Positions 26,083 through 63,942 of a stretch of 64,000 nucleotides of DNA are shown in pieces; the stretch's first letter is position 1; every line of letters begins with the position of its first letter. The notes beneath the pieces are model-generated. The model did not search any database, had not been told where the DNA came from, and was given only the letters and a program-made list of their open reading frames with translations. This stretch comes from Circinella umbellata (Eukaryota; Mucoromycota; Mucoromycetes; Mucorales; Lichtheimiaceae). The position numbers and the translations under genes are program-made. The DNA lies in NCBI GenBank assembly GCA_025093555.1, contig JAIWNF010000105.1:1-64000 (forward strand), written 5' to 3'.

Positions 26083-27310
26083 CTTGTTCCCAACTGCTCT
26101 TTTTAGTGATTGGGGTTTCCGTGATTCCACAGAAAAGTATTGCAGTGCATGCTCTTCTCACTCTCTCTGGTGGTGGAAGTTGGTTCTGCATGTATTTGAC
26201 GAGCGATGGTATGTTTGTGTGTGTTTTAGTGTTAAAGTTGCCCAGCGATTTAATACTCACAATAGTTTTTTAATTCAATTTTTATAATAGATTCTTGCTT
26301 CCTAACCGTTCCCTTTCAGTGATTGGGTGCACATGTGTGTATGAGAGGGGGTTTCAGTGATTCCAGAGAAAAGTATTGCAGTGCATGCTCTTCTCACTCT
26401 CTCTGGCGGTGGAAGTTGGTTCTGCATGTATTTGACGAACGATGGTATGTTTGTGTGTGTTTTAGTGTTAAAGTTGTCCAGCGATTTAATACTCACAATA
26501 GTTTTTCAATTTAATTATTATAATAGATTCTTGCTTCCTAACCGTTCCCTTTCAGTGATTGGGTGCACTTGTGTGTATGAGAGGGGGTTTCAGTGATTCC
26601 AGAGAAAAGTATTGCAGTGCATGCTCTTCTCACTCTCTCTGGCGGTGGAAGTTGGTTCTGCATGTATTTGACGAACGATGGTATGTTTGTGTGTGTTTTA
26701 GTGTTAAAGTTGTCCAGCGATTTAATACTCACAATAGTTTTTCAATTTAATTATTATAATAGATTCTTGCTTCCTAACCGTTCCCTTTCAGTGATTGGGT
26801 GCACTTGTGTGTATGAGAGGGGGTTTCAGTGATTCCAGAGAAAAGTATTGCAGTGCATGCTCTTCTCACTCTCTCTGGCGGTGGAAGTTGGTTCTGCATG
26901 TGTTTGACGAACGATGGTATGTTTGTGTGTGTTTTAATGTTAAAGTTGTCCAGTGATTTAATACTCACAATAGTTTTTTAATTGAATTTCTATAATAGAT
27001 CCTTGCTCCTAACCGTTCCCTTTCAGTGATTGGGTGCACATGTGTGTATGAGGGGGGGGTTTCAGTGATTCCAGAGAAAAGTATTGCAGTGCATGCTCTT
27101 CTCACTCTCTCTGACGGTAGAAGTTGGTTCTGCATGTATTTGACGAACGATGGTATGTTTGTGTGTGTTTTAGTGTTAAAGTTGTCCAGTGATTTAATAT
27201 TCACAATAGTTTTTCAATTTAATTATTATAATAGATCCTTGCTCCTAACCGTTCCCTTTCAGTGATTGGGTGCACTTGTGTGTATGAGAGGGAGTTTCAG
27301 TGATTTCATG
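26083..27310. repeat. Tandem array, ~236-bp unit, five copies plus a partial sixth
   Basis: Using GTGATTGGG as the unit start, copies begin at 26106, 26319, 26555, 26791, 27026 and 27262; spacings are 213, 236, 236, 235 and 236 bp. The middle copies are nearly identical; the first has lost ~23 bp and the sixth stops after ~45 bp. Each unit contains TATTGCAGTGCATGC, CACTCTCTCTGG and TGTGTGTGTTTTAGTG. The frames that appear open in each unit shift between units (236 is not a multiple of 3), which argues against a repeat protein. Confidence 0.9.
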
Positions 27311-27779: not shown

Positions 27780-30700
27780 AATACTGTCTATATCGAATGG
27801 TGGAGGGCTGTTATTGATAATAAGTACACAATCTTCAAAATATGAAAAGCAATCACATGCGGGTACAAATATAGGTAAGGTTCGCGTTGAAAATGATGCT
27901 TGTTACATTCTTGAAAAAGGATCTTGGTAGTATCTTCGTAAACCCATCGGTTCTTTGCCTCGATCGATAGGACGTTTCCTTTTATTCCAATTTTAATGTC
28001 TTTTTTTTTCAATGCCAGGAAGTTCTACTTTCACGGTGAACGCCCCTGATTTTTCCTCTACCAGATCGATTTTCGGTTCAACATATGCTACTTTAGTTTT
28101 TATATCGCAAGGATTTATAATAATATCGTGGAGTTTACTTGGAACAAGAAAACCCTTCTTGAAGTTGATATTGGCATTATATATTGCATCTTCCATGTAT
28201 GCTTGCTTATCATCTGGTGGGCATGGAAGCTTGTCAATCAATTTTTTAACTCTTTGTCATCGAACTCAAATGGTTGTCCTTGCTACTACTTGAAAGCATA
28301 TGGAGAGATGGATGCTCCAATGATAAATCGAAGATAGCATGGTTGATTGCTTCAAGCTGCTTATATACTTTGATTGATTGCCTCTGGAAAAATGACAAAA
28401 ACAAAATTAAAAATACGTATTAGAATAAAAGCATAAATTTCGCTTAAAACATACATCCGGGCCCCCATTTTCATACCTTGATCGATAAAATAATTATCAT
28501 AAGCTTCACCAAACCTTTAAAATCCCCCGCAACACGAGATAGACATACACGAGCAGCTTCGTAATGAATATCAATACCGCGAATCCGCCTGGTACCACAT
28601 ATTGTTAAATCAGTTCCATGCCAAAATGCAGTATACTCGTCAAATTCGCTGATTAAAGTTTTAAATGGTAACTTTCTTTGTAAAACATTAAGTGCAGCTA
28701 CCCTAACACGCTTGTTTTTTGTAATGGTATCGCTGATAGCTTTATGCGTTGTACGTGATGGCTTGTCTTCACCGATCATTACATCCAACCCGCAATTTAT
28801 ATCACGGAGCGCAAAGTCTACCTTGTGTTTCTGATGTTTAGATGGTAATGGGGTTGATGGTGATGATAATGATAATAGCTCATCGTAGGCTTCAAATGCA
28901 GTCGATGCACATTCAGTCCTTTAATTGGAGATACGTACGACACGTTAATCAGCGGTTATCAACAAAATAATAGCAAATAAAATTGTGCAAAATCGTTGTA
29001 CCTTTTTGTATCATACTTTTTTTCTTGCAAAAATACATCTTCGAACAAAGGACCATAAAGATTGAGTTGATACCACCCTTCATCATTTTGTCTGGATAAC
29101 TTGGCAGACTCCCATAAAAGTAATCTTTAAGTTTTATTAGTCAATTAAGTAATATAATTTTTGTTTAAAAAGAATAACAAAAAAATAGACATACATTTTA
29201 TGAAGAGCAGATCGAATATACTCCCGACCGGGAGAAACGTGAGTTTGCTTGAAAAGATGTTGCTTTATCATGCACAATTCTTGCAGACCTTTACATCCAC
29301 GAATCCTGCTGAGCCACTCGGCCTCATCTTGAGGAAGACAAAGAAAGGTAACTAACTGGTTTGCATGTTCGTGAAAACATTTGGCTGATAACAAGCTGCC
29401 CATCGAGTATAACCTTTGCCTTGTAAACTATCTACCCAATGACGACAAAAATATGTTGAGAAGACTGGTTGCGTTCGTGCAATTTCATCAAGGGATGGGT
29501 GGAAGATACTGTAAAAGGTAGACATGGGATATATGAGTCCAGTATCGAGAATGGAACACTTGTTCGGTCAAGTCAAGACTGTTTTCTTTTCCACTAAAAT
29601 AGTATCATACGTATATTGCGGAATGAATTTTTAATATCTGATGTCAAGTTCATGGATTTTTAAACAGGAAAAACAGTGCTTACAACTTTTCATAAATAAA
29701 TAAAAGTTTGTTTTCATCGGAAAGGCTTTGTAATTTTTGGATCCATTGTGCCGCTTGTTCTTGATTAACATTCTTCTCCATCTCTCCATAAAGGGGATCC
29801 TCACTTTCTTCCGCTATTTCTTCTGTTGATAATGTTTCTTTGCTAGTAAATTGTTTTCGCTTTTTTTTTATCATTATCAAATATATATATTGTTAGAGAA
29901 AGATCAACCAATACAGCTTGGAAAGTGTTGGACTCAAATACCTACCCTTTTATTAATAACTTGCTCCTGATAGCTACTTTGATCTATAAACAACAAATTT
30001 ATAGTATTAGGAAATGAGTTATACTTTAAGCTCTTTCACGCATCATCTGCACCACTATTAAATTCAAAAAGAAAGAAACAAAAACCAAGTGCTTCATTTT
30101 CTCTAACCATGTTTCCACTCCACCTTAGTTGAGATACTTCTTCCTCCCACTTTATTTTATTTCAATTTTTCCCTTTTATTAATTTGTACCTCATATAACT
30201 TCACTTCGCCCCCCTGCTGTCTAGCAGGTTTTTCAGTACCTCTCTTTGTGAGCTGACGAGAGCAATAAGCTGAAATCAGCGTGTGTTCAATTCATTTCGT
30301 CATTGATAAAACAAATAATTTCAACGTAAGCTCTTTCAGCACAGGCATCTTTTGGGTTTAGTTACCATAAGGCCGTTTAAGGAGACGTTTTACGAGTTTG
30401 GTAGTACGATCTTGTTTCTGCTGCTTCTGCTTCTTTACACGCCATATCAATCTCCATTCCATGCCAGTATTTCTCGTATTCTTTGGGGTTGACACTATCT
30501 GTAATACGATATAAAAAAAACCAGTTAGACGAGAAAATATAATAGTTAATTACTGAATAACATAAAAGCAAAACAAAACATACCAGATTGTCGATGTCAA
30601 CCGGTTTTTGAGCCTATTGCTAAATTTTTCTAGGTGTTGTATCCAACTTATAATGGGTTCACAAAGACAGATAGTTATTAATAGCAGTATATCATCAACT

Positions 30701-31192: not shown

Positions 31193-32302
31193 CAATGAAT
31201 TTATTATGCTAAACCAGTATCCTCCATATATGAAAACCTGTTTAACTTTTGAACTTGAACTGGTAGCTAGAAAATAAGATTAAATATTCACAAGATGAAA
31301 AATATATTTGATAGATTATATAAATAGTTAGTTGAGATGACTCTTACTATATATTGAGGGTTTACCTTTTAGTGATAAAAATACAGTGATTGAGTCATTT
31401 GTTCATTCAATCAATCAAGAAGAAAAAAGAAGAAATGTACCTATATAAAATGATACAATGATGAGTAAATATGTATCAATATTATAACTTATATATTTGA
31501 TGATAAATAACAAGTACATGGCGTGAAGCCGAGAAAGAAGAAAAAAAAATATTGGGGTGATGTGAAGTTGATGTCATTCCCAACAATTTGTTTTATCTAT
31601 TGCACACGTAAAAGACTAAAACCAAAACTAAAAAAAAGATCATACTACTGAATCTAACATACATAACGGGTGATTTAATAAACTGATATTTGGATAAACT
31701 TGCTCAAATATTTAAGAGACTAATAATACAAGTATTTTTACTTTATTGTATATAATACTTATTCATTTCATTGTTAAAATTAGTAATATGATCTTTTTTT
31801 TTCTATTTTGGTTTTAGTCTTTTACGTGTGTAATTGATAAAACAAATTGTTGGGATTGACATCAACTTCACATCACCCCAATATTTTTTTTTCTTCTTTC
31901 TCAGCTTCACGTCATGTACTTGTTATTTATCATCAAATATGTATATTGTGCTATTGATACAACCCATGTCTATATATACATATATATACGCTCACATTCA
32001 CTCATTGTATTATTCTATATAATACATTATTTATTTATCTCGTTGCTTAATTGAATGAACAAATAACTGAGATTCACTTTATACACTAGACAAATCAAAC
32101 TCTCAATAGTAAAAACTGTCTTAGCCAACTAGTTATATAATCTATCAAATATATTTTTCAATTTTGTACGTAAATATTCAATCTAACTCTATCTCAAATT
32201 TAAAGCATGTTTTTTCAGCTACTGGCTTAACCTACGGATATTCCGTTAAACTACTTGAGGTTTCCATATATGGAAGGATATCGGTTTAACGGGAGATTAC
32301 TG
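31193..32302. mobile_element. Family B copy 3: ~1.1-kb palindromic (inverted-duplicated) element
   Basis: The right end is complementary to CAGTAATCTCCCGTTAAACC, next to TA at 32303; the left end near 31193 is degenerate. The two halves are inverted copies: AACAAGTACATGGCGTGAAG near 31509 is mirrored by its complement near 31900, and CAACAATTTGTTTTATC near 31583 by its complement near 31840. Arms are ~400-500 bp, centre near 31715. Confidence 0.7.
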
Positions 32303-38276: not shown

Positions 38277-38350
38277 TTATTATCTCGATCAATAACGTAA
38301 ACGTAAGATAAATACAGTAGTATCTTTTTTTTTTAACTTTTCATTGTATA

Positions 38351-39161
38351 CGGTGAGTATTCGCTAAACCGGTACTCGTTAAAACCGGTATTTCGGTAAG
38401 CCGGTAGTATCTCTCAATTATTTTTTTATATATATTTAGTAAAATACCGGTAATTCGCTACACCAGTATCCGGTGAACTTTCCTAAATATTTACCGGGTT
38501 TATAATAGTATTATTTTATCTTATATAATTCAATATTAGTCTTTTTAATGGTAAAATCAGTAATACAGTCTTCCTTTAATCTTATCCCAGCTCTTCCCTT
38601 TGTTTTCAGCTGGCTACTTTGTTTTCATAGCAATTAAAAATACACAAATAATTCTTGTCGTCAAGAGAAAGCTTCCCAACATCTTGTTGATAACAGTGTC
38701 TCTTTTTCGCCAACTTCACACAGATGTTTTTTTCTTCTTCCTCATCTGCCTACTTACGTACTTCTTTTCACTTTTGTCACGTACTTGTTCATTACCATTG
38801 AATACTGTATGTAATTATGTTGTTGATACAATTCGCTTTTACTCATTTATTCGACTGCTAACCAAGGTCCATATTAAACACATTTTGTTGTAAATTCATT
38901 ATTTATCCAGTGTCTGATTAATTATTACTATTTGATGTATACACCAGTGTCATTTTTATCACTAAAAGATTAGCTCAAGTAAGTAGCATAGCTACATTAA
39001 GCAGCTAGCTACATTATATAAACTATTATTTTTTTTATCTTACGTATCAAGTATATTCTACATATTAGTACCAGTTGCATTTCAATTCGCTAAACCGGTA
39101 ATTCGCTAAACCGGTACAAACCCTCACATATATCGAGTACCGGTTTAGCGAATACCCACTG
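38351..39161. mobile_element. Family B copy 5
   Basis: Left end CGGTGAGTATTCGCTAAACC after TA, right end complementary to CAGTGGGTATTCGCTAAACC before TA. ACCGGTAATTCGCTA motifs recur near both ends. This is the reverse-orientation match of 13691-14485 and the best-preserved copy with that one. Confidence 0.8.
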
Positions 39162-39247
39162 TATATATATATATATATTATTTATTTGAAATCATTTCTT
39201 ATATTCTGATACTAACACGAATCTCATTTAATCTCATTTACAGAGTA

Positions 39248-46866: not shown

Positions 46867-47583
46867 ATGACTCGCTCTACTTCTCTCACTGCTCCTGCTT
46901 CTACTTATAAACCAAACAAATCACGCATTCGCGTTCGTTTCAATCGTCCTCCGCCACCTCCTCGCCGCATCTCCATTCCCAAGTGTGTATTCAGCTACGG
47001 CTGGGTACAGACAGGTTTGGGTTCGGTAATCAAGAAAATCCAAAGATGTATAATCTCTAAAAAAGAGATTGCCCCACGCCGGCGCCTACAACCTTCCCAT
47101 ATGTCATTTTCCCGCGTCGGCTCGACCCTCAATGCCGCTTCACCTCTTTCTTCTCCGCCGCTTTTCCCTGTCGGCTCTGACAGCTCCCTATCAAGCCTCT
47201 CGAGCCTCTCGACTCTTTCCCTCGGCTCTTCTTCTCCTCCGCATTCTCCTACTCTATCACTCGCATCCGTATTTTCTGGTTCCTCTGGTTCCAATGCTTC
47301 TGTCGCTGATGATGTTGGTTCTTATGTCGGTGTTAATGGTGTTGATGGTGTAGGAAGAGAACAAGAAGAAGAAGATGAAGAAGAAGAAGAAGAATATGTA
47401 GGTGAACCTGAACGTGAAGAAGTTGATGAAGAAGAAGATGATGATGATGAAGAAGAAGAGGGTGGTGACCCTATGGAAATAGACTGGCGATTTGGCGATG
47501 GTGAGGAAATGGATGTGGATTGGTGGGAGGGGGATATGGAGGTGGATATCCTCCCCCCCAATGCCACATCGTTATGGTTTTAG
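46867..47583 (+). CDS. Uncharacterised Ser-rich protein with acidic tail
   Basis: Single open frame of 238 aa. Residues 1-~80 are basic with a PPPPPRR run. Residues ~85-140 are a Ser/Pro/Leu-rich tract. Residues ~165-200 are almost pure Glu/Asp. The last ~40 residues hold three acidic-Trp segments (MEIDWRF, EMDVDWWEGDMEVDI). No known domain; disordered and acidic, like a transcription or chromatin cofactor, though that is only composition. GC content is well above the surroundings. The stop codon lies three bases before a strong donor (TAGGAG|GTAAGT), so this is exon 1 of the spliced transcript described next, or alternative splicing skips the stop. An AACAG just before the ATG could be an acceptor of a 5' UTR intron. 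Confidence 0.65.
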   Translation: MTRSTSLTAPASTYKPNKSRIRVRFNRPPPPPRRISIPKCVFSYGWVQTGLGSVIKKIQRCIISKKEIAPRRRLQPSHMSFSRVGSTLNAASPLSSPPLFPVGSDSSLSSLSSLSTLSLGSSSPPHSPTLSLASVFSGSSGSNASVADDVGSYVGVNGVDGVGREQEEEDEEEEEEYVGEPEREEVDEEEDDDDEEEEGGDPMEIDWRFGDGEEMDVDWWEGDMEVDILPPNATSLWF

Positions 47584-49064
47584 GAGGTAAGTTCTGTCTT
47601 GAATTGTATACAAAAATAACTATTTTATCGTGTCTCTAATTATCAAAGGTCTATTTTGTAATAGTAGATTTTATAACCTTGAAAAACAAAAAAGTAAGTT
47701 GCAAAATACCTGTTTGAAGCATGTTTTTTTACTCGTCAAAAAATAAATAACTTGTTGCTGACATGTTTTTTTCTTAACAATTTAGAAAATATAAAACCAA
47801 CAAAAATCAAAAAAAAGTATAAAAACCTTAAAACCCAAAAAAAAATCGAAAAACACATAAAAACCCAAAAAAAACATTCTTTTCTTTTCTTTTCTTTTTT
47901 TATTGGTAAGTGACCTTTTTAAATTGTTCTCTGAATTAGATATAAAACATGTTAAGATATTGAATACTAATACAACAATCTTCTTCTTCTTTGTAGGCTC
48001 GTTCTCCCTTTGCATTTTACTTTTTTTTTATCTTTTTCTATTGGCGTCGTTGGTTAGTCGGTGTATTTTTTTTTAATAGAGGTAATTATTTGATCGGTTG
48101 GAGACAAATTGATGGCAGTAGTTAAATTTAAAGTATACTAATATCTTATGTTTATTGCTATCCATATATATAGGTCGATTTAACTCCCTCTCACTTTTTT
48201 TATCTTTCAAGATACCCTATTTCTTTCATATACCCATTTTTATTCAAGGTAAGTATTTTATAAATATATTATGAATATTGGATACGGACAAGGTGATAAA
48301 TTAAAATGATAGTGTAGTTACAGTACTAATCATATTTATCATAACTCATACTCATATATGTAGGTCGAGCTGGCTCTCTTTTCGTTTTTTCAATATACCC
48401 CATTTATAGACCATACCCTATTTATTTAATATTTTTGCTGTTGTTTTTGAGGTAAATATTCCAAATATATAATATGAATATGAATTATCGATAGAGTGAG
48501 AAATGAATATGAAACTATAGGTACTAACCATGCTTTACATAATCCACATTCTTACATATATATAGGTCGAGGTCGGGCTGGTTCCCGTTCCTCCCTCTGT
48601 TATTTATTATTTATTTTTAAGGGTACGTACTTATAAATGTGCTTAAATACATATATCGATTATATATAATGATAATCAGCTAGATTTGAGTTACTAATCT
48701 CCATGTCTTTATGACATTTAATATATAGGTCGACCAAGTCTCCCTCATTTTTGTTTTCTACCTATTTATTTATCCAGTTTTGATATTTATTTATTAGAGG
48801 TATGTTAAATTAATTATACGGAGAAACAAGTGTTAATGCTAGTGATTTATGCTATAACAACTAATAAAACATTTATTATATATTTTATTAACACTTAGGT
48901 GGAGGCGACTCCCTCTAGAGTTTCGCCATTTTTTATTGGCGTAGTAAATGGTTTTTGAACCATTGAGGTATGTAAAATATAATCATGTCAACGTGTAAAT
49001 AATACAGGATTATAAGAATGCACGATGTATAATTAATATCTAATTGGTTTTTTTATTTAAATAG
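47584..49064 (+). other. Chain of tiny exon-like units with strong splice signals
   Basis: Predicted exons: 47650-47691 (least sure), 47786-47905, 47997-48081, 48174-48248, 48364-48451, 48566-48622, 48729-48799, 48899-48967, then a last exon from 49065. Most introns are ~90-115 nt, begin GTAAGT, GTAAAT, GTATGT or GTACGT, contain TACTAAT/TACTAAC-like branch sites, and most end ATATATAG. Exons at 48174, 48364, 48566 and 48729 all start GTCGA, that at 48899 starts GTGGA, and most contain CTCCCTC or a variant, so they appear to be duplicated exons. They are T-rich. One frame reads GR-x-x-SL-type hydrophobic peptides across 47997-48451 and again across 48566-48799 but does not stay open throughout. 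Coding status is undecided. Confidence 0.55.
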
Positions 49065-50110
49065 ACCCGTAGTGGTGTTACGGGTAGGTTGATCCCGCTT
49101 GGTAGGGCAGAGGAGGATGGCATCTCGGCGGATGGCTTGGTGGAGAGAAGGCAGGGTAGTGTATGTTCATACTATGGTTGGTAGAAAGGTGAAGGGGTGC
49201 TTACTCTGTGGCTACCCCGTGGTTGGTGACTGTGGGTGTGGGTAAGGGGGGAAGCAGAGTAAGAGAACTTCAGGAACACTCGGGCTTTTATAGGTTACTT
49301 GGGAATACGCCACCTTCGATCTGGAACAGATGTAATGCTGATGACAACAAGCGTTTATCTTTTCGATATAAAGACCGTAAGTTATTTTTCCTTTTTTCTT
49401 GTTCTTGAAAAAAAAAATAATAAATGCAATTTGTTGATGGAATTTTACTAACTATTAAAAGAGTTAATTTATAGACCTTTAGATACTCCATTATAACAGT
49501 TGCAAGCTTGTTGTAATGGAAGCAGAATAACGAATTCCTAGTTTCAATCTTGTCATCAGCCTTATATCTGTTATGGATCGAAGGTAGTGGATTGCCAAGT
49601 AACCTATAAAAGCCCGAGTGTTCCTGAAGTTCCCTTACTTCTGTGGACTTCCGAACCTACATTCATGGTCATCGGCCATGGGTGTTAGCCATGGAGTAAG
49701 TCCCTGAATCCTAGTACACCAGCTGTAGTGTGGACTGCACTGCCTGTAAGCCCTTTTCTTCATCAAGTCCATTCGTTGAGGTGTCATCCTAGGGTGTGTG
49801 CTCGGTGCGCAGAGGCGTCTGTCTTTCTGGCGCTTTGTGATTTTGGCGTGTGGCGTACGAGAGGCGTCGCAGAGGGTTTCCCACGTGAGTGCGATCACCT
49901 ACCTCTCGTAGGTGCAGTTTCCGGTTTATTTGCTGGAATAGTACTCAGCACTATTTTTTGGTGTTGCGGTGCTGCCTGTTTCGCTTTTTCGGTTGGCGAA
50001 GAATCCTTGTATTAGGATGTAGGTTCATCGTGCGTTGACGCAGATGAACTTGGAGACATTGGTATGAATTCTGGTTAAGGGTAGCTGGAATATCAACCTC
50101 AGGGTATTCT
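49065..50110 (+). ncRNA. GC-richer, hairpin-dense terminal exon; candidate structured RNA
   Basis: It begins exactly at the acceptor AAATAG|ACCCGT with a perfect stem ACCCGTA-GTGGTGT-TACGGGT (49065-49085). Other perfect stems are CACCTAC-CTCTC-GTAGGTG (49896-49914), a CAGCAC...GTGCTG pair near 49950-49975, and a long stem at 50021-50050 (GTTCATC...GATGAAC enclosing TGCG-TTGA-CGCA). GC content is near 50% against ~30% around it. No convincing long ORF. It may be a lncRNA, a structured 3' UTR, or part of an unrecognised retroelement. Confidence 0.35.
49205..49695. repeat. Inverted repeat, ~150-bp arms
   Basis: 49205-49355 and 49543-49695 are inverted copies. The best-conserved core reads TTCAGGAACACTCGGGCTTT and continues through TATAGGTTACTTGG in both. 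The loop is ~187 bp. On the plus strand the second arm contains CCTATAAAAGCCC, a TATA-like motif. A transcript across it would form a long hairpin. Confidence 0.75.
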
Positions 50111-53006
50111 TTGGGGTATTTGCAAACTTCTACTATAACAAGAACGCAAGTAACTCGATAATGATTTATTTGGGCCAACACAAACTTAAGGAAATGGTCA
50201 TTGGTATCAATTATGTCTTCTTCTTGGTATCGAATCGAAGTCATCGTAGTGAATCAACCAATCAGGGGTCGAACTCTATATGTCTCACTCAAGAATGTTT
50301 TGTAAGGCAACAAACCATATTTTTTATGCGCACTACCAACAATACCACGATAAAAAAAACAAGGAATGAACATTGGAACCAAAAAGAAGAAAAGCACCTA
50401 TCAATATTTCAATATTGCTCAATTTTTTTTTTCGACACCAAAAAAAAACAACTGAACAAGAGCCATTCAACACTCTACATTATCGAAAATACAACACCAA
50501 GTCAGAAAACAAATGACAACGCTATCAGTCAATTTATCACCTTTGATTATCAAATTAACAGTACTTTTATTATATATCGAAAAAGAACATCGATCAAAAA
50601 CAAACACTCACAACTTGTGTTTTGGCGACGAACAACAATCTTTTAATTCAAACCAAACATACACCATTTTCCAGCGTGAAGCAGCAAATGTATTTAAACA
50701 TATGACAATAGTAGCAGAAGCGGAATGTTTATTACGACACATAGTCTTCAAGTCACCTAAAAAGAAAAATATATTGGGGTTTTCAGATAGACGAATAACA
50801 AGTATTTAAAAGAGCAAAGAATATTTCAATTATCAAAAATAAGATCTGTATCTTCTTGCGGAGCGGTCATCGTCATTATCACAATTCATCATCAAATATA
50901 AAACTCCATCAAACAACATATGGGAATTTAACATTTTGTTACCAAGAAAAAGGAGAAGCAAATTAAAAAAAGGATTACTAAAATCAATCGCTATGATATA
51001 TATGCACCATTTATCGTATCAGAACGGAATTAAATGTCAAATACCAAATCATAATGTTCAAGAACAGCGACTATTGTGGATCATTAATATCATCCAAGAT
51101 CTGAGTAAATTGTCATATTGGGGTTGTGACATCAGAGAGCAAACATATACAAGCACACTATTACACTTTTTGAATTGAAAACCAACAAGTACCAATAATT
51201 ACATGCAGCTATATTTATAATAACAGTAAAATTGTTATCAAAAAGAAGGAGCAGAATGTTATACTTTAAGCAGCATATAATCTTAAACACCGTCATGGTC
51301 ACCATCTTCATCAAAAAACAAAGATCAAGCAATTCATTATCGATACACCAAGAAAACTACCATCTTTTATCATATTGGGAACTCAAGAGAGCGATATTTT
51401 GAAAACGAACATGCGAACTCTATAGATGGAATTCGTTTTGGTCTTTCAATTCGAATTAGGAAGCCACTTTTTTCTTTCAAACAACACAATGTTATGAAAA
51501 ATGATCAAGAACATCCGAGGGACGCCATCAAAATACCACCAACTATATATGAAAATAGTTACAGTATAAAAAAAGTGCTATAACTAGAAACACAGTATTT
51601 ATCACACATATAGCAGCAACAGCATCATCATCATCATCACAACAATAAGATGAAACAACTATCATTCAATTGAGAAATAAAATCAAGAACACCACTTGAG
51701 CTATTTGTTACATATACAGCCTTTGAGGAGAATAAATACCTTCACTCATAAATATTCAGGAAGAGTAGCACCAGTCATATTATACAAAAACACTCTACAT
51801 TCAATATATAACAACAGGAAGAACAACAGCATCACCATCACCTAAAATCCGTATACCTTTCTACAATCGCAATCAACGATTAATTGCCACGAGACAAACT
51901 ATACGTACAACCAACTCTATATATATTATATTGACACGTATGAGTAAAGAACATGCGGTAACCCAGAACTAAAAAAAAGAACAGCCTGATATTCCTGGAA
52001 AAACGCGGCAGAAAAAAGAGTGTTTATTCGAGCTAGCAAATATACTGTGGAGTATTCCATTTTGTGATCATCAAAACTTTACGGGAGCAATATTGTCATT
52101 TTACTGAAGGAAATCTACAATATGAAAAGAACTATGATAAAATTTCTCACTCACGGAATCAAAAACCCACGAGCAACAAGAATAAGAAGACGCCAATTAT
52201 TACCGAAGGCTCAAGAACATGGGGGTTTATTGGGACTTAATCAAGTTATCCCATACCATTATAATTTATATAAAAAAAAGTAATATAAAAAAACCAACAC
52301 GTATAAAAAAAATCAATTAAAAAACAAAACAATCAAGAACAACAAAAAAGCCATCAAAGTGGTTTTTCAAAAAGATATTTTAAAAGAGTAAGTTAAATAT
52401 TTCATTAGAAAGTAGTTCGAATTTCTTCTCTTTCACCCTCCAAAGCAAATGGCAACAATAATAGTAATAATGCGATTAAGAACCCGATAATAATATAAAA
52501 TTAATAAACTATGATATAGGACGTTCTACCATCAATCGCAAGAACAAGAAGAAGAACAAGAACAAATGGTGATACTAATATCAATAGTGCGATGAAAAAA
52601 AAGACCGGATAATAATATGATAGTAAATAAAATATAATCTAGGACGTCTCACTACCACACAAACACAAATACAAGGACACCACAACGACAAGGACAAGGT
52701 CAAGTACAATAACAATAATTTTTATTTTATTTTTTTAATAAAAATTAAATGAACAAAATCATAGTTTCTTTTTTTTGTAATTGTGTTAAGTTGTACTAAA
52801 TAATAAGCAAAGGGATATAGTGCACTTGGTTGATTGTTAAGGTTCTGTGAGAGGTTTTTCTTTCTTTTTCTACAAATACGTATAATGAATTCAATTATAT
52901 AGGTATTCATGTTTTATATAATTGCAAGTTGAATACACAATTAATTCATACGTAATAAACACAAAACCAACAATCTACAAAGTATCATGTGGTAATTTTA
53001 TCAATA
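50111..53006. other. A/C-skewed interval without recognised genes
   Basis: From ~50200 to ~52720 the plus strand is conspicuously rich in A and C (runs such as AACAAGAAGAAGAACAAG, CATCATCATCATCAC) and poor in G and T. A ~115-bp unit is duplicated at ~52450-52540 and ~52565-52650 (anchors AATAATGCGAT/CAATAGTGCGAT, GATAATAATAT and AGGACGT). The longest open frame, 50161-50646, is low complexity and has no domain. Confidence 0.45.
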
Positions 53007-53811
53007 CGACGCATGCTGATTTAAATAGTCAATTGTCGAAAATTGAAAACCTGTCGGATAATACGTATTACATCCACATTTAGAGGTATTAAATCCCATA
53101 TTTAGCATATAATAATAGTGAGCTACCTACTTTCACTTATTGAATAATTTGAAGGAAATAAAAAAATACATATATAATGTATAATGTATAATAAAGTGAG
53201 AAAAAGAAAATTATATGAAAAAAATTATTAAAGTATGAATACGTAACAAAGAGATACATATAAAGAAAAAGAAGAAAAAAAGCAAGTTGATAATCATGTA
53301 AAAGCTGTGAAACTGTTCTGAATAAAGACGTAAAGAATATTTATTTTTAAAATAAAATAACAACTCTTTTATATCTTTTCTTATTTTATTCTATTTCATT
53401 ATGGATAAACTGTATTTCATACATAAAACTAGATAAATAAAAGGTCCTACGTATTATATTTTATTACTACATCATTATTACTAAATCATTCTTCCCTCCT
53501 AAAACTATTTATCACAGTTGTTACTATATTATCTCCTTTTTCCTATAAAGTAACTCTTTCTCGAGATTCATGTACTGATAGATAATTTATCAAACATAAG
53601 CTGTATTCAGCTACACACTGGTTTTGCCTTCACAATCCTTATGCAACATTTCATATTCCGACAAAACTTTGAACGTTATTAACTCGATATTTTTAATAAG
53701 CACATTGTAGGTGATAAAAAATTAATTACTTCATGTCAAAAATATTTCATGGGGTTCACCTTTTTATGCCGGTATTCAAATTATTTTGACGGTTTAAGAT
53801 AGAATGCACCA
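53007..53811. mobile_element. Family D copy 3
   Basis: Left end CGACGCATGCTGATTTAAAT after TA, right end complementary to TGGTGCATTCTATCTTAAAC before TA. The left 150 bp are nearly the same as 57485-57640 (TAGTCAATTGTCGAAAATTG). Internally deleted; no ORF. Confidence 0.75.
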
Positions 53812-53816
53812 TAGCA

Positions 53817-54011
53817 ATGACTTTGGAAAGAACAGAGAGAAATCTCTTTATTGAATCAGGTGAGAATCATTATCTTATTTATAAAGCTATATTACTTTAG
53901 TTTTCTTTATATTGAATTACTCCAATTGTAGATGACGAAGAGATTTTTGCAATGGTGTCAAAATTATTGCATGCTACAACCGTGTCAATGAATAGAACCA
54001 TCTCTTTTTAA
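53817..54011 (+). CDS. Possible two-exon micro-protein or gene fragment
   Basis: ATG at 53817, five bases after the end of the family D element; exon 53817-53859, donor GTGAGAAT; acceptor ATTGTAG; exon 53932-54011. They join in frame to 40 aa, with ERTERNLFIES followed by DDEEIFAMVSKLL. No known family. A well-formed small intron argues for a real gene remnant, but the size and position argue for a fragment cut by the transposon. Confidence 0.3.
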
Positions 54012-54475
54012 TAAAATACATCAGTCAAAAAGTATCAATTCGATTATTCAGAAAAGATGAACTATACAATGACCACGTCACTTTCTACGTTCTGGAGAGA
54101 AAAGGGCATAAGGAAACTGGACTCAATAGTTGCACGAAAAAAGGCGCAAGTACTATTTTATTGTGTGGATGGTGTTATCAAAAGTGTTCTGTATTGGTTT
54201 TTGTTAGAGGAAAACATAAAAAAAAGGTTGGCAATTCTTTTTGATACCTCTATTACGTATACATGAGCAGAATATAACAAAATAGATAATAATAACAGTA
54301 ACGATATTATTATTTTGTATCAGCAAAATGACCCCTTATATGATTTAAATATCTCAAGTTCGCTTACTATGAAGATTGTTATCAAATTAATGTATTTGGA
54401 GATATTTATGCTAAAAGGTAACTACAGCGAAATCCTTTATATCACTGGAACATTCTGGATAAGCTACATCTGATA

Positions 54476-55264
54476 CAAAGGATCCTCGTTAAATTTCATA
54501 GGGCTATTTCTCATTTTTTCCGTGTGAAAATTAACCGATACTATGAAATATTTTCCCAAGAATGTACACACATTGAATACTTCAGCTCACTACTGTATAT
54601 CTTTTTCAATGTATTAAAATAGGTATTCATTACTAAATTATTTCCATGCGCTTGTTCTTAATGTATTTTTGTAACTATTTCCTTCTCTTATTTGAGCACG
54701 TCTATACGTACCTTTTTTATTCTGAAAAAAAAAGTCATATATACTTCCAAGAGACTTATTTTTTATATTATTCCATTTTTTCATATTTTCGCTCTATACA
54801 TACACAAAAACGTTGACAGTAACCAAATCTAACGTGGGATTGACATCTGAACAATATAGTATTCGGAGTGAGAAGAAAAAACGTAGCCCACGAACCATGA
54901 CAAGCTGATCACTAGCATTATAGGCTAAAAATGAGTTCCACTTGTTAAAGGGACCTGATATCAGTACGATATCCAAAGGCTTAAAGAGAGAAAAACAAGA
55001 AAAAAACATCCAATAAACTCTTATGGAAAAACATGTAAGTGGCGTAATAAAAAAGCAATCCATCCTGTATACTGATTTAATTGCGACCCTTAAATTTATC
55101 ATATGAATAATTCCTTTTATTATATCCATTAGAGATTCGGTGCTGCTCGGTGCCCATGAAAGTGGAATAAGAGGGGATCTGAAAATTTTGTTATGGTACG
55201 TATTTTTACTATTTCTTAATTTTGGTGAACTTTTTGAGGTGTGAAAATTAGCAGATATTGTCTG
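54476..55264 (+). mobile_element. Family A copy 3: decayed pogo-derived element
   Basis: Left TIR CAAAGGATCCTCGTTAAATT after TA; the right TIR is partly deleted, ending TGTCTG before TA. Plus-strand interior from ~54817 reads VTKSNVGLTSEQYSI, then, across in-frame stops, AKNEFHLLKGPDISTISKGL: the CENP-B-type HTH again. Confidence 0.72.
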
Positions 55265-56214
55265 TAACTAATTATTATTATCTTTGATATAAACATAGAT
55301 CGAAATGTCATTTTTCGATGATAAAAGCACACAAGTCAATCAAGTTACTCCCTGACAATAATCACCAGAATATAAAACTTGATTTTATTGTTGAAGCTCT
55401 TGGTGATCGGAAACAAATTGGAGGATTTGTTTATCGATAAAGATAAAGGAAAACTTGAAACGAGCACTTTGTTGATGAAAGGCCACACTAAAGGAGACTT
55501 TTGTCATGTTCAATCTTTAAAATATTGATTGTCACTCATTCCACCATATATTAAAATCCCTTATTTTGAAACGATCTCGAGACAAAACACACTGCTTGGA
55601 ATTTGATATTATTAGTACCACAATGCTCAGCTCCGGAGAACTTATCCATTGCAACAAGCATCACATTTCAGTTCCAAAAACCTTGATATCAAAGCATCAG
55701 AATTGCTAATCTTGTCTTGACTATGATTTCTCTCAAAGTTAGTATTTATTTTATTTGGCAAAGATTGAGTGACATATAAATTCTCTCACTAATCATAATA
55801 TAAAAATATAAAAATAGCGCAACATTATAAAGAACAATCGCCGAATACAAAGGGTATTTGAAATCATTCAAAAGGATGCAGTGGAATATCTTGAGAGTTG
55901 TCCTAATATCTGCCAAACACCTCAACTTTTACGCTCTGACTCCACCTCTACATCTCAACAATCAAATTCAAGTGTATCTGACAGTTTATTTAAGCTCATC
56001 TGGAAAATCGTATTCGTCTTAAAAGCCACCAACTACTTCATCCGTATCAACCCTGTTAAGAAACGAGAATTATAACAGCAAGGCTATGGATTGGATGGAG
56101 ATGAACGTAAAAGAAGAATAAATCAATAAGTATTGGATGAATTCAATAATCTAACTTTTGAGGATGACGCGCTTACTGGTAATAATTGGGAACAGTTATC
56201 TTTTGGAATTGAAA
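55265..56214. other. Possible decayed coding sequence
   Basis: Frames with ordinary amino-acid composition (for example 55881-56075 +, Ser/Thr-rich) are broken by stops and lack supported splice sites. No identity assigned. Confidence 0.3.
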
Positions 56215-56527
56215 CAGTCAACTCCCGCTTTTGCGCCTCCCGCTTTTGCGCCTCCCACTTTTGCAAATCTCCCAGGTCTGCACCTTATGTTTTTGGAAAT
56301 GTTAAAAACACCCAACGGAACCGCAACTTGCAATTTGCATCAAGATTTTTGGGCGAGTTGCGCTAATCGGGAATAATCTGTACAAACATAGTAATTGTAT
56401 ATAAATCATTATGCAAATAAGAAAATACCGTATTTGAATATATATCAAGTCTCACTTGTTGCAAGTCTTCGGTTTTGCAACAAAAAAATAAGGAAATCTC
56501 AGGTGTGCAAAAACCGGGGGTTGACTG
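56215..56527. mobile_element. Family E copy 2: 313-bp MITE
   Basis: Left end CAGTCAACTCCCGCTTTTGC, right end complementary to CAGTCAACCCCCGGTTTTTG. A TTTTGCGCCTCCC unit is repeated at the left. Flanks are not TA, unlike families A-D. A similar end (CCCCCGTTTTTTGCA) occurs alone at ~2586. Confidence 0.72.
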
Positions 56528-57484
56528 GCTAATACTTTTTTATTTCTTTCATTTAATTAACACCCTTTCTTGTTTTTTCCTTTATTTTACAATTGAAGTT
56601 ATGATACTGTGCTCAATACTTATATTACCATATATACTTAAGCGGAATCATTATTTTTATACAGCTGTCTCAATCATGATATGTAATGTTTCTTTAGTCA
56701 ATAATATTATAAGCTGTCGTCAAACTGCATCGTCTTTTTTTTTATTTACGTATATACAAATTTAACAAGAACATTAATAATGAATCACCATTCTTTGCTA
56801 TGAGTAAAAATAAGTACAGGAAGGGGTTTGATAAAAGAAACATATGTATGTATAGCTGCTATACGTACAAGTCTTTTTTTTTATAACGATATTATTTCTG
56901 TCAATTCTTTATAGAATCAGTACGTGTATAACACAAAATAGCACTACCATTACACATGATCGATGATCAAATACTACATAATATTTTTATTATTATTTTT
57001 CTTCCTTGATAATACAGTAATACGTCTTGCGGCTAATAATTAAATATAATCAATTTAATAGTAATACTGGAAATAACATTTGAGTCTATTTCAGAAAACA
57101 CAAAATAAAATCCATACGTACAGGAATAATCAAGCACGGTAAGCATATAACATCCAACTATACGAGCACCACATTAATAACCACGGTAACTATCAATTGC
57201 ATTTGTTGAATTATATTATTATTAACACATAATAATGGGTTCTGAATCTACGAATAGTTTAAAAAAGTAGTAGTTCGACGAGGAGACATAATAGTCACTG
57301 TACATAGGAAAAAAAGATCAAGCAAAAGAAAATCTACGTGCGTAGTAAAATAAGTCAACAAGTACTAATACTAGTAGCTTATAACTTATTAACTATCTAG
57401 TTATCATTTATCATAATAAAAAAATGCTTTTCTTTGAGTCATCTTCAATTTTTGCCTGGTGCTATTTTTTTTCCTTATAAAGTA
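56528..57484. other. Gene-poor AT-rich interval
   Basis: No supported gene; the hydrophobic ORF at 56475-56765 overlaps the MITE end and is AT-driven. Nothing further recognised. Confidence 0.45.
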
Positions 57485-58784: not shown

Positions 58785-60794
58785 TTATTCAATAATAAAT
58801 TCCTTTAGTACATCGTGAGCATCATCTTCAAATAAAATATTCAATATTTCCTTTGGATCCTCAGTACAAATATCATCTCTTCCAATATAATGATTCCATT
58901 GAAACGTTGGCTGCTCTGAAATCTTGTTGCCTTCTCCGATATAATAGACACCTATTGCTCTATATCGTCCAGTACCCCTAGTACATTCTCGCACCACAGG
59001 AAGACAATAATCCTTGTCATGCCTTTGGATGATAAAGTTGGACACATTCTCGTCAACTTGTGCCAACACTGCTGTATGCAATTTAAGTAAAATTGGCAAT
59101 ATTATACATTCTTCACAATCTTCAGTCAATGTAAGTGGTCTGATTTGTGTAAATAAACCACCTTGAGGCTGATGGTAGTGTGTCATATTACAATTTGTTA
59201 CAGCATTTAAATTCACGAGCCATTCCAATAATATATCATTCTTGTTCGCTGAAGTTAAATCGTTAATATAGTCTTCGCGACATCTGTTCTTATTAATACG
59301 ATCCATTTCTTGGGCGTGAAAAACAACTTCTTCACGACTAATCTTTGGGAAAGTATAGCAGCCATGGTCATATGGTTCAATAGATATTTTCCAGTAGTGT
59401 TTAGTTGTTACATGCATCCACATAGTGTCGTCGATATGATACTTCAGTTGTGGGTGAAGTGTGGTACTAACACGGTTACTTGCGTGGGATCCACTAACAC
59501 CAGTCCATGAAGGTAAATTATAACTATCCATGGTACTTTTCAAACGTACAACTCCATCTAAACGAAGGCTGGATCCAAAACACAATATCGAAAGATCGTT
59601 TGTTACAATGTGTCGATAAAAATCATTAAATGCATTTTTTATATGGGTTGAATAGCTGGTTTCCATATCATCAAACATATAGTAAAAGGTGTTCTTCAAG
59701 GCATATATCATATCGTGTGGTTTAGTACTTGTTCGGAAATGAGCGTACGCAAGTGCCTGATTGACACTACCCTTATTCTGCTTTGTTCTTCCTCCAAAAT
59801 CAATTAAATTACTGGAAATAAAGTCATTTGTTGCTGGTATGTCTGTTGTGTGCAAACTATGTTTGAACATATTTGTATTGGCTCCGACTATTAAGATGCG
59901 TCTAGCCATCATTACTTCTTCGAGTGTCCAGCTCCGTTTAAACCAGCACGACTCCCAGACGTAAGTTAGTAACATGTCATGTGCTCTGTGTCCAGTAGCA
60001 AAAACGTTATGCTCAAAGTCTTTTGGATCGTTGAGGGCAGCTTCAGGTATCATAGCAATTGTATAACAAGCATTGTGATAAATTCTGTGCATCTGTTTGA
60101 TTTCTTTTGACTTGGCTTTATTGTCTTTCTGATCAATACAAACTTTATCATACCACACATACTCGACTTGAAAATCCTTGCATACTTGTTGTAAGAGTTC
60201 GTCGTATGTAACATATCGTATTCTTGTTGTTTCTGACTGTGGTACACAGAATAACACATGGTCTTTAAAATCCATCATATATTCTTCGTGACTGTCAGAA
60301 ACAACCTCGGAAGCGTCTTCTTTATCCCTCTCTTCCTCGTTTTTTTGTTTGTCTTCTTGATGTTCTTCTTTGTGATGTAGCTTCATTTTCATTTTGGTTA
60401 TCCCCTTTTTAATTGGATTGATTATCTTCTTACGGAGTTTCCTCTCACCGGCGTTTTTATCAGCTTCTTGGATTTCGCTTAATGCCTTACGAAATTCCTC
60501 CCATTGTAAAATACTATCTTTAAATGGTTCGAAGTTTTCGACAATACAGTGTTTACCGTTATCAACTAAGCTATATTCCTCATTGGTTTCATTTTTAACA
60601 ACTTCGCCTGATTGTTCCCAACAATATGAGATAGTGTGATATCCATTCACTGCTTCTGTGCCAGGTACCTTTTCCCAATCAGAAACACGGACAAGCCAAG
60701 TAGGACGATAGTCTCCTCCAGTCACACTAAGTCGATAATTGGTTTGATCCTCAAGATCGACTGTTTTTTGATTTCGACAATATGTTATATACAT
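58785..60794 (-). CDS. HET (heterokaryon incompatibility)-domain protein 1
   Basis: Single exon, 669 aa, ATG at 60792-60794. HET motifs are in order: GYHTISYCWE (51-60), VEYVWYDKVCIDQ (210-222), IKQMHRIYHNACYTIAM (232-248) and WFKRSWTLEEVMMARR (284-299). Downstream are PHDMIYALKN and NLPSWTG, both usual after the HET core. Residues ~97-172 are a Lys/Glu-rich insert absent from the paralogue at 61667-63481. In ascomycetes HET proteins trigger cell death after non-self recognition; HET alone does not prove that role here. No NACHT, WD40 or transmembrane part is seen. A family D element follows the 3' end. Confidence 0.85.
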   Translation of the reverse strand: MYITYCRNQKTVDLEDQTNYRLSVTGGDYRPTWLVRVSDWEKVPGTEAVNGYHTISYCWEQSGEVVKNETNEEYSLVDNGKHCIVENFEPFKDSILQWEEFRKALSEIQEADKNAGERKLRKKIINPIKKGITKMKMKLHHKEEHQEDKQKNEEERDKEDASEVVSDSHEEYMMDFKDHVLFCVPQSETTRIRYVTYDELLQQVCKDFQVEYVWYDKVCIDQKDNKAKSKEIKQMHRIYHNACYTIAMIPEAALNDPKDFEHNVFATGHRAHDMLLTYVWESCWFKRSWTLEEVMMARRILIVGANTNMFKHSLHTTDIPATNDFISSNLIDFGGRTKQNKGSVNQALAYAHFRTSTKPHDMIYALKNTFYYMFDDMETSYSTHIKNAFNDFYRHIVTNDLSILCFGSSLRLDGVVRLKSTMDSYNLPSWTGVSGSHASNRVSTTLHPQLKYHIDDTMWMHVTTKHYWKISIEPYDHGCYTFPKISREEVVFHAQEMDRINKNRCREDYINDLTSANKNDILLEWLVNLNAVTNCNMTHYHQPQGGLFTQIRPLTLTEDCEECIILPILLKLHTAVLAQVDENVSNFIIQRHDKDYCLPVVRECTRGTGRYRAIGVYYIGEGNKISEQPTFQWNHYIGRDDICTEDPKEILNILFEDDAHDVLKEFIIE

Positions 60795-61074
60795 TATTTC
60801 TAATTTTTTTATTCTATTAGCACTGTATTTGATTATATCTTTTTAGTTTTTAATTAAAAAATTATACAAATTTAATTATTTCAGATACGTACCTTGACAA
60901 CAGAGTGAAAAAATAACAAAGAGTTTCCCACTAGTATAAGTTTTCTTTTCTGGTAAAAAAAAAAAGAAAGAAGGCAAAAGGACATCTAAGATTATGTAGT
61001 GTTATATATATGCAAAAGGGAAAAAAGCAATAGTTTGTGTAATCGCAACCTAAATCTAATTCCATTTATGTAAA

Positions 61075-61666: not shown

Positions 61667-63481
61667 TTATTCAATAATGAACTTTTTTACTGTATTATGA
61701 TCGTCATTTTCAAATAAAGCATTAACTATTTCTTTGGGGTCATCGGTATGGATATCCTCAACTCCAATAAGATGGTTCCATTTAAATGTTGGCTCACATA
61801 GATTATCATGGTCTCCAACATAATAGATACCTATCATTTTATACCGCCCGGTGCCCTTAGTACATTCACGCAACACAGGAAGACAGTAGCTTTGGTCATA
61901 GTCAGTAATAAGAAAGTTGGATACATTAGGATCAGGTTGTGCGTTCATTGGTGCATGTGATTGAAGTAAAATCGGTAATATTATACAGTCTTCACAGTCT
62001 TCAGTCAATGTAAGCGGTCTAATTTGTGTAAGTGAACTATCATGACTTTGATGGTAATGTGTCATAAACAAAGATGTAGCATTTTTTAGATTCAGAAACC
62101 ATTCCATCAATAAAGAATCCTTGTCTGCTTTAGTCATATCAATCCATTCATCATTGAATCTAGTACTACTCATACGATTAATTTTCTCCAAATAAGCGTC
62201 AGTATCTTTAATACCATCTTTTGATGAAGAATAACACCCGTTATCATAGGGTGTAATAGATATTTTCCAATAACGAGGAGTGGTTATGTGCAAGCACATA
62301 GCCTCGTCAATATGATATTCCAATTGTGCGTGAGTCGTACTGGTGACCCGATTTTCTATATGTCTTCCAGCAACACCAGTCCATGAAGGTAAATTATAAT
62401 CATCCATGGTACTTTTAAGATATATACTTCCATCAATATACCGAGTGGATCCAAAACACAATATAGAAAAGTCTTTTGTTGCAACATGTCGATAAAAATT
62501 GTTGAATGTTGTTTTTATATCCATTGAATAGCTTGTTTCCATATCGTCAAACATATAAAAAAAAGTATTTTTTAAAGCAAATATCATATCATGTGGTTTT
62601 GTACTTGTTCGTAAATGAGCGAAAGCAAGTGCTTGATTGACACTACCCCTCTTGTGTTCTGTTCCTCCAAAATCGAGCAATGTTTTAGAAAAAACATCCA
62701 CTGTTGTTGGTATGTCAGATGTATTCAAACTATGCTGGAACATATTTGTATCGGTACCGACTATCAAGATACGTCTAGTCATCATTACTTCTTCAAGTGT
62801 CCAGCTTCTTTTCCACCAGAAAGAACTCCAGACGTCATCTGCCACAGAGTCCTGTGCTTTGTGACCGCTACCATAAACTGCATGGTCAAAATCTTTTGGA
62901 TCGTAAAGACGAACTTCAGGCACCATGGCAATCGCATAACGAGCATTGCGGTATATCTTGTGCATTTGTTTAATTTCGCGGGATTTGGCTTTGGGATCTG
63001 ACTGATCGATACATATTTTATCATACCACACATACTCGACTTGGAAATCCTTGCATACTTGTTGCAAGAGTTCCTCATATGTAACATATCGTATACTTGC
63101 TGATTCTGATTTTGGTTCGCACCATGAGATATACTCAGTATAGTAATCCTCCTCGTCTTCTGGATGTGAAATGTTAACCATTCGGTAAGTGTCATCTTGG
63201 TATAATTTGTATCCTTCGACGATACAGTGATAACCATTATCAACTAAGCTATATTCATTGTTATTGCCATCAGTTTCGTTCCTAACCACTTCGCCTGATT
63301 GTTCCCGACAATATGAAATAGTGTGATATCCATCCACTGCTGCTGTTCCTGGTACTTTTTCCCAGTCAGAAACACGAAGAAGCCAAGTGGGTCGATAGTC
63401 TCCTCCAGTCACACTCAGTCGATAATTGGTTTTATCCTCAAGATCTACTGTTTTTTGATTTCGACAATATGTTATATACAT
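61667..63481 (-). CDS. HET-domain protein 2 (tandem paralogue)
   Basis: Single exon, 604 aa. The start is the ATG at 63479-63481 because MYITYCRNQKTVDLED matches the start of the paralogue at 60794; the frame extends upstream only through a non-ATG codon. Motifs: GYHTISYCRE (51-60), VEYVWYDKICIDQ (148-160), IKQMHKIYRNARYAIAM (170-186), WWKRSWTLEEVMMTRR (222-237). The Trp that normally follows SY-x in the first HET motif is Arg here (R59), while the neighbour keeps Trp. The two proteins are collinear apart from the charged insert in the first. Same strand and ~0.87 kb between them, consistent with tandem duplication followed by divergence. Confidence 0.85.
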   Translation of the reverse strand: MYITYCRNQKTVDLEDKTNYRLSVTGGDYRPTWLLRVSDWEKVPGTAAVDGYHTISYCREQSGEVVRNETDGNNNEYSLVDNGYHCIVEGYKLYQDDTYRMVNISHPEDEEDYYTEYISWCEPKSESASIRYVTYEELLQQVCKDFQVEYVWYDKICIDQSDPKAKSREIKQMHKIYRNARYAIAMVPEVRLYDPKDFDHAVYGSGHKAQDSVADDVWSSFWWKRSWTLEEVMMTRRILIVGTDTNMFQHSLNTSDIPTTVDVFSKTLLDFGGTEHKRGSVNQALAFAHLRTSTKPHDMIFALKNTFFYMFDDMETSYSMDIKTTFNNFYRHVATKDFSILCFGSTRYIDGSIYLKSTMDDYNLPSWTGVAGRHIENRVTSTTHAQLEYHIDEAMCLHITTPRYWKISITPYDNGCYSSSKDGIKDTDAYLEKINRMSSTRFNDEWIDMTKADKDSLLMEWFLNLKNATSLFMTHYHQSHDSSLTQIRPLTLTEDCEDCIILPILLQSHAPMNAQPDPNVSNFLITDYDQSYCLPVLRECTKGTGRYKMIGIYYVGDHDNLCEPTFKWNHLIGVEDIHTDDPKEIVNALFENDDHNTVKKFIIE

Positions 63482-63942
63482 TATCTTCTTTCTGCTCTGT
63501 AATTTTTCTGAGGTAGAAAAAGATATAAGACGCAACCGAAACAAAAAAGTAGTTTATTAGCCCAGATGTCTTTTGTTATTTGAATAAACATATTATTATA
63601 TGATGCACTACCTCACAGTTAATTATGGGTTTCTTTATTTTTTTTAAAAGAGAAAAAAGAGAGGGAAGAGAAATAAAAGCTCCAGTTTTTAAAGAATTCT
63701 AGATATTCCCCACCGAAAATACGTCTAAACCAATAACTGAATACAGTACACAATAAGAATAGTACTAAAAATAAAACATGTTGCTGTTACAAAGTAGAGG
63801 GTTACACAATTGTCAACTTTGTTCCTGGGCCTATCTCCAGAAATCCACACTTCACAAAACTAACGAGTTAAAAGCTATCAATATTTCAGATTCAATTATA
63901 CAACTAATAAACAAGAAGAAATTCGATAAATGTAAAGAAAAT

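Follow-up and report, generated by a model that had tools for sequence, protein, structure and literature searches.

Open reading frame and intron array

The stretch of Circinella umbellata DNA analysed here (64 kb, referred to as the window) carries on its + strand an open reading frame (ORF) followed by an array of short introns and exons, a long hairpin and an A-rich tail. Further copies of this locus, designated by L numbers, are dispersed in the genome and were used for comparison. The ORF (46867-47583, +) encodes 238 amino acids, with a low-complexity, variable middle and a near-invariant C-terminus that reads ...DWRFGD..MDVDWWEGDMEVDILPPNATSLWF before the stop codon. In its last two 100-nt bins, 150 third-position changes were counted vs. 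63 and 78 at the other positions, and 121 vs. 36 and 29, respectively, and pN/pS at the ORF end ranged between 0.21 and 0.35 (windows starting at 47390-47450). Judged by these substitution patterns, the ORF is under coding constraint. The end PPNATSLWF-stop was found in all 15 hairpin-bearing copies. ORF ends were mapped at 17 loci, 16 of which have TSLWF, L023 being the exception; L024, L025 and L028 have no aligned ORF end and fall outside this count. The full-length ORF is present in 12 of the 15 hairpin copies, whereas L019 has a 138-aa form and L015 and L020 have broken remnants.

The protein encoded by the ORF had no Pfam match over the cut-off and is predicted to be disordered (mean pLDDT of 51). 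Annotated relatives are present in C. umbellata and C. minor. The ORF is 100% identical to C. umbellata BDC45DRAFT_578419 over 89% of its length; it must be noted that this public gene model omits the conserved C-terminus. Among the C. minor relatives, the tryptophan motif is largely present in P0003 and partly in P0007, both of which end without the last residues, and P0004 is devoid of the motif. In addition, the NCBI model of the window copy (P0001) splices differently, into array sequence and a hairpin exon, and reads parts of the array as coding; it was taken as a probable gene-prediction artefact.

An earlier note on this DNA had proposed an array of micro-exons behind the ORF, and its existence was confirmed. 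Between 47587 and 49064 there are nine introns (78, 92, 91, 92, 115, 114, 106, 99 and 97 nt) and eight internal exons (29, 120, 85, 75, 88, 57, 71 and 69 nt), all on the + strand, and every intron begins with a GTANNT donor and ends with a TAG acceptor, shortly before which there is a branch-like site (CTRAY or TTAAY). The ORF stop sits 3 nt ahead of the donor of intron 1 (47587-47664; its counterpart in oriented L012 is 3840-3909); the donor lies 3-13 nt past the stop in most copies and is lost in L019. The 29-nt exon and intron 2 (47694-47785) are followed by a 120-nt exon that is A-rich and then T-rich (47786-47905, unit class C), intron 3 (47906-47996), an 85-nt exon (47997-48081, class D) and intron 4 (48082-48173). 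As the note had stated, the next four exons start with GTCGA, at 48174, 48364, 48566 and 48729, and the last one starts with GTGGA, at 48899. These are the exons of 75 nt (48174-48248, class A), 88 nt (48364-48451, class E), 57 nt (48566-48622, class G), 71 nt (48729-48799, class B) and 69 nt (48899-48967, class I), separated by intron 5 (48249-48363), intron 6 (48452-48565), which is 70% identical to intron 5, intron 7 (48623-48728) and intron 8 (48800-48898). Intron 9 (48968-49064; 15-copy alignment) provides the acceptor that opens the hairpin exon. In the unit classification, no class F unit was found in the array of the window copy. The statement that the introns mostly end in ATATATAG was too strong, as this end was found in three of the nine (ending at 48173, 48565 and 48728).

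The strength of this pattern was evaluated with a script that seeks, in a given stretch, the longest chain of introns with donor, branch site and acceptor. The best chain had eight members on the + strand of the array and none on the reverse strand; intron 1 is missed because the 29-nt exon behind it falls under the length limit of the script. In 300 dinucleotide shuffles of the array the chain had a mean of 0.97 members and a maximum of 4, and in 130 overlapping, array-sized control windows, taken on both strands from the rest of the 64 kb outside the element, the mean was 0.68 and the maximum 5 (reached once). The chain of introns in the array is thus longer than expected by chance. Splice sites follow one another without a break in the window, from the ORF through to the hairpin.

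With respect to the coding potential of the array, the note had found no single clean ORF over the concatenated exons, and this agrees with the family comparison, in which, of the 443 indels in 47900-49099, 361 have a length that is not divisible by three, and a consistent codon phase could not be detected. A role of the array as protein-coding exons was therefore rejected, given these frame-breaking indels between copies and the lack of a consistent phase. The GR-x-x-SL peptides reported in the note can be read on paper, but there is no sign of their frame being kept. The pN/pS scan revealed four weak 120-nt windows at the array start (starting at 47600, 47630, 47720 and 47750; pN/pS 0.47-0.54), none that passed the filter within 47780-49064 and, as further coding regions in 47.6-52.4 kb, weak windows only. 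Two ORFs located beyond the array, at 49689-50012 (+) and 49291-49656 (-), had no Pfam match at an E value of 0.1. The first one has a relative, P0008, on an ENA contig of 1536 nt, with 66% identity at 98% coverage. The sequence of 49689-50012 therefore exists elsewhere, which does not indicate its nature, so that a protein might still be encoded there.

Hairpin fold and base pairing

Hairpin exon 1 (49065-49376, +) contains a G-rich left arm at about 49114-49349 and is separated by a loop intron of 98 nt (49377-49474, +) from the start of hairpin exon 2 (49475-49798, +), which contains the right arm at about 49550-49798. The splice signals of the loop intron were compared across 15 copies: the donor GTAAGT is present in all 15, the branch site CTAAC in 14 (TTAAC in L017) and the acceptor TAG in 14 (TAT in L018). 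These signals place a putative spliceosomal intron between the hairpin arms, as in the architecture of ihpRNA. Downstream there are a conserved G/T-rich stretch with short predicted hairpins (49799-50090, +) and an exonic tail (50091-52387, +) that is A-rich (42% A), has more C than G and is weakly structured on the + strand; of the two strands of the tail, the - strand has the stronger fold, both in the window and in 11 further copies (first 1400 nt compared). A conserved GTAAGT donor lies behind the tail at 52388, and other copies continue past it. In the window, homology with these copies picks up again at about 57000-57471, and the interval in between (52410-57005) is read as an insertion that splits the window copy; it holds a multicopy genomic repeat (about 54473-55258).

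The computed fold of the spliced window hairpin (638 nt) has 217 interarm pairs and a minimum free energy of -371.7 kcal/mol, while 60 shuffles gave -201.6 +/- 6.9 kcal/mol (z of -24.5 for the window). The number of interarm pairs was 215-228 in 14 copies and 183 in L022, so that an extended, near-perfect inverted repeat is found at RNA level in the computed folds of all 15 copies. The hairpin and the ORF end co-occur in each of these copies. In each of the 15 copies, folding was more stable for the + strand (-308 to -401 kcal/mol) than for the - strand (-188 to -289 kcal/mol), a gap that fits the presence of G.U pairs. The hairpin had been overlooked in the earlier note because its detection needs other copies and RNA folding.

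Several other explanations for the folded region were examined and rejected. Extension of the left arm by pairing of array exons with the A-rich tail produced only short scattered helices and no clear stem extension, in a spliced fold of array plus tail in which several exon ends were 1-9 nt off. A snoRNA host gene or a known RNA family was discarded, since Rfam gave no matches over the gathering threshold in the 64 kb and intronic snoRNAs received no support; at E values up to 5 there were only MIR5048, a long-hairpin model (38.9 bits vs. a cut-off of 160), and one weak lncRNA match. The stem, of about 217 bp, is too long for a short-precursor fungal milRNA. In addition, a viral origin of a conserved 41-mer was rejected, with no exact matches in viral_contigs.

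Aligned as DNA, without credit for G.U, the arms share 66-77% identity across the copies (about 75% in the window). When their transition mismatches are read as RNA, the window arms have 37 G.U vs. 3 A.C, and this bias is present in every copy (33-40 G.U vs. 1-5 A.C in the same type of alignment, with 14-45 transversion mismatches per copy); it must be considered that the 15 G.U counts are not independent, because the copies are related. G.U makes up 16-20% of the stem pairs and occurs in both orientations, with 19-26 G-U and 12-18 U-G per copy.

A second foldback of the window, at 31258-32200, is unrelated to the hairpin; its arms are 81% identical, and its two strands fold equally well (-280.5 and -278.6 kcal/mol, computed over 640 nt). 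Used as a control, it has 22 G.U vs. 24 A.C, whereas the same script applied to the hairpin region gave 47 G.U vs. 5 A.C. This contrast is the main evidence that an RNA duplex of the + strand has been maintained and not a DNA repeat. It thus seems, from the mismatch counts, that the RNA duplex rather than the DNA palindrome was kept, with wobble pairs apparently preserving the duplex despite the imperfect DNA repeat, which is the principle of G:U hpRNA.

Recent variation among the copies supports pairing weakly. In the 15-copy alignment 97.0% of the cells pair, against 40-44% when the arms are slid, and six pairs changed on both sides, against 1.5 in shuffles (as many in none of 500) and 0-4 when slid. 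Further pair types were as frequent as in shuffles (60 vs. 59.1). Of the one-sided changes (n = 67, L022 left out), 34 keep the pair and 33 break it, where 26.3 kept would be expected (z of 2.0); with all 15 copies included, there were 55 changes of each kind. Given these near-even counts, selection may nowadays be weak or, in some copies, relaxed. Variable columns are about half as common in the stem as elsewhere (71 of 434 vs. 212 of 587, with the loop intron counted as outside and L022 left out). L022 was excluded from the one-sided and column tests and from the mutation rates because its left arm is partly lost, and was included in the fold, arm-alignment, all-copy and pair-counting analyses.

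Family copies and proposed mechanism

A genome search with the array showed that it recurs elsewhere in the C. umbellata genome. Against the 50.8 Mb assembly the array had at least 65 matches and a wider-region query at least 125, several of which can fall in one copy; 20 regions were extracted for family comparison. The alignment ends examined for the family copies are not the ends of the repeat. The hairpin stretch is near-complete at 15 places on 7 contigs, in addition to a half on contig C46 and a fragment on C145, and the own-genome search with this stretch, in which short matches could be missed, gave nothing beyond the family and these two fragments. The C145 fragment (L030:1996-2262) corresponds to the right arm, is 76% identical and lies about 1.8 kb upstream of an ORF, which we take to resemble the N-terminus of a DEAH-box helicase. 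The hairpin stretch of the other copies is 93-94% identical to that of the window (82% in one copy). We read the copies as three putative subfamilies, namely C101, C1 with C126, and C8 (the contig of the window) with C174, C199 and C5.

Intron chains were determined in 15 further copies, L024-L028 not being part of this count. There were 8-10 introns in 11 of them, 6 in the truncated L023 and 4 in each of three C101 copies, which score low because many of their branch sites are TTAAC and fail the strict rule. The order of the units is H-C-D-F-A-E-A-B-I in L012, H-C-D-F-E-A-B-I in L014 and C-D-A-E-G-B-I in the window copy. Since array architectures differ between copies, units must have been gained, lost or replaced, and the class A unit occurs twice within one array in 8 of 16 copies, which bears out the repeated exon-plus-intron duplication suggested in the note. 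In the four copies compared, identity reaches 70-73% for introns of the central units and 73% for exons; most other intron pairs have 42-67%. Taken together, the array probably belongs to a multicopy gene with a long-hairpin transcript, and the whole is likely one transcription unit.

The anatomy of the array and hairpin locus, as deduced from these comparisons, is well supported. With regard to its function, on balance we lean towards a natural intron-looped, G.U-tolerant long hairpin RNA locus that would feed Dicer and Argonaute. Transcription would start upstream of 46867, the ORF would yield a disordered acidic protein, and splicing would remove the nine array introns and the inter-arm intron. 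The spliced RNA is predicted to fold into a stem of about 217 bp (computed in 15 of 15 copies, reduced in one), which Dicer would cut into small RNAs that would load on Argonaute. In this regard, searches of the own genome found four Piwi-domain loci and three RNase III loci, two of them with paired domains and the third with a single one. Given that the other hairpin copies are so similar to the window's (93-94%, one 82%), silencing would in the first place act on the family itself, in trans, as dosage control or repeat-family silencing, and other targets are possible. With G.U pairs, the duplex would persist in the RNA even as the palindrome decays in the DNA, to about 75% identity. The role of the array is not accounted for by the hairpin; speculatively, it may, through splicing, help the transcript to enter RNAi or to be exported, or turn it into a substrate of NMD. 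It counts against this mechanism that L018 is devoid of the loop acceptor TAG and L019 of the donor behind the stop, that the ORFs of L015 and L020 are broken, that the arms differ by transversions as well, that the public model P0001 has other splice junctions, and that the own-genome search, which could overlook short matches, gave no target beyond the family.

Alternatively, the locus may be a gene for a protein, with an exceptionally long 3' UTR that contains multiple introns; the introns past the stop would mark the mRNA for NMD, and the hairpin would be a control element of stability or translation and no Dicer substrate. The constraint on the ORF, the conserved position of the stop with a donor 3-13 nt behind it in most copies, and the location of every array intron past the stop agree with such a gene. 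However, the hairpin is about 94% identical to the window in 6 of 7 100-nt bins (49100-49799) and the ORF end only 75 and 89%, and the 217-bp duplex is larger than the UTR stem-loops known to us. We consider this explanation possible but unlikely. It is also rather doubtful that the locus is a selfish or transposon-like non-autonomous repeat, in which the hairpin and introns are incidental or a defence of the element. No transposase or reverse transcriptase domain was found among the few element ORFs scanned (one ORF, then six proteins), and coding and pairing constraint speak against it, even though at least 15 dispersed copies on 7 contigs in three subfamilies, many fragments and the apparent insertion in the window copy are what such a repeat would leave.

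The repeated T-rich exons, and the strongly folded core adjoining a weakly folded tail, could be thought of as a structural non-coding RNA scaffold, with the repeated exons as binding sites and an undiced duplex bound by dsRNA-binding proteins. This is improbable, given that the genome has Dicer-like genes, that the stem, long and regular and of about 20 helical turns, is a classic Dicer substrate, and that no repeat-binding factor was identified. Finally, strand-biased mutation of an ordinary DNA palindrome, by which + strand C-to-T and A-to-G changes would give G.U without selection, is very improbable: although the neighbouring 49800-50090 is likewise G/T-rich and C-to-T is 1.4 times as frequent per site as G-to-A outside the stem (L022 left out), the four transition rates predict a ratio of roughly 1.2:1 instead of 12:1, the skew is reversed in the tail of the same transcript, and the control foldback is balanced.

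Returning to the hairpin RNA locus as the favoured reading, long hairpin RNAs are a standard RNAi tool, and RNAi in Mucorales has been well studied in Mucor. The intron-spliced hairpin constructs for RNAi of Smith et al., from the year 2000, reportedly have their arms separated by a spliceable intron; those constructs are engineered, whereas the intron-looped hairpin of Circinella is natural and multicopy. Endogenous hpRNA loci have been described in Drosophila, among them hp-CG4068 and, in D. simulans, the suppressors of X-linked drivers (PMC10317233, PMC10292708), and the Circinella family resembles them in its long inverted-repeat RNA and in its several copies, dispersed or tandem, with rapid change in copy number (PMC10317233). 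Most novel D. simulans hpRNA loci also give discrete spliced RNAs (PMC10317233). However, Dicer-dependent siRNAs and targets have been demonstrated for Drosophila hpRNAs, whereas the Circinella family is known from its sequence alone; moreover, unlike in those, its hairpin is preceded by an ORF and an intron array and carries an intron in the loop. In G:U hpRNA transgenes, the inverted repeat is broken at DNA level and wobble pairs hold the RNA duplex together, a design that prevents self-silencing in plants (PMC9263138). The G:U content of two such constructs (21.5 and 18.2%) compares with 16-20% in the Circinella stems, although they were designed with C-to-T changes of the sense strand only, while the G.U of Circinella runs in both orientations (PMC9263138). 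Fungal milRNA hairpins likewise lie near or in gene transcripts but tend to be short, and the natural action of fungal long hairpin RNAs is said there to need exploration (PMC9757828).

As for the array, an intron in the centromeric RNA of S. pombe has been linked to RNAi and silencing (PMC5322907), and by analogy the array may tie splicing to silencing as in fission yeast, although one intron is reported for that RNA and an array of nine is predicted for the Circinella transcript. The Mucor R3B2, an atypical RNase III, degrades transposon RNAs, and its targets have hairpin-capable CAG repeats (PMC11943222); by the same kind of analogy, an R3B2-type pathway is another possible reader of the hairpin. 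The earlier note knew of no described fungal locus of this form, and neither such a locus nor a description of this family is apparent among the matches listed from the open-licence PMC literature, judged by titles and abstract openings. We know of no other locus that combines an ORF and an array of this kind with a loop intron and wobble bias.

A bolder version of the favoured reading, conceivable but unlikely as a whole, is a self-contained fungal RNAi cassette. One transcript would give both a disordered acidic protein with the Trp motif, possibly a candidate Argonaute- or chromatin-binding peptide, and a G.U-disguised, intron-looped long dsRNA, with the expandable non-coding exon/intron array as a splicing-linked entry into silencing. 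The copies would silence each other and be kept since the RNA duplex is selected and the DNA palindrome is free to decay. If the hairpin reading is true, the locus would be a multicopy natural case of long hairpin RNA in an early-diverging fungus, and its layout would converge with two engineering tricks, the intron as loop and the wobble pairs, thanks to which the DNA need not be a palindrome. In addition, the G.U vs. A.C count together with a DNA foldback control offers a simple sequence-only test for RNA-level hairpin selection in any genome, and the exon array is a tractable example of how exons are duplicated repeatedly, together with their introns, in RNA that is apparently non-coding.

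Other features of the window

Several further repeats and related ORFs were observed in the 64 kb. A tandem repeat of 236 bp at 26112-27305 has five copies that match at 96% and contains a repeated open frame of 83 aa. The open frames at 14828-15984 and 27993-28920 are similar by eye; the first matches HSP20 and the second looks shortened. On the minus strand there are two related long ORFs, 58785-60842 and 61667-63553, with 74% DNA identity, the former of which matches the HET (heterokaryon incompatibility) domain; further copies of this pair are present in the genome. The repeat at 38347-39163 is found in at least about 39 other genomic places (among 40 scored), at 80-91% identity. Finally, short tandem units of TATCGTTATATCGAA occur at 20748, 21431 and 43113 and are present too in the right flank of L021.
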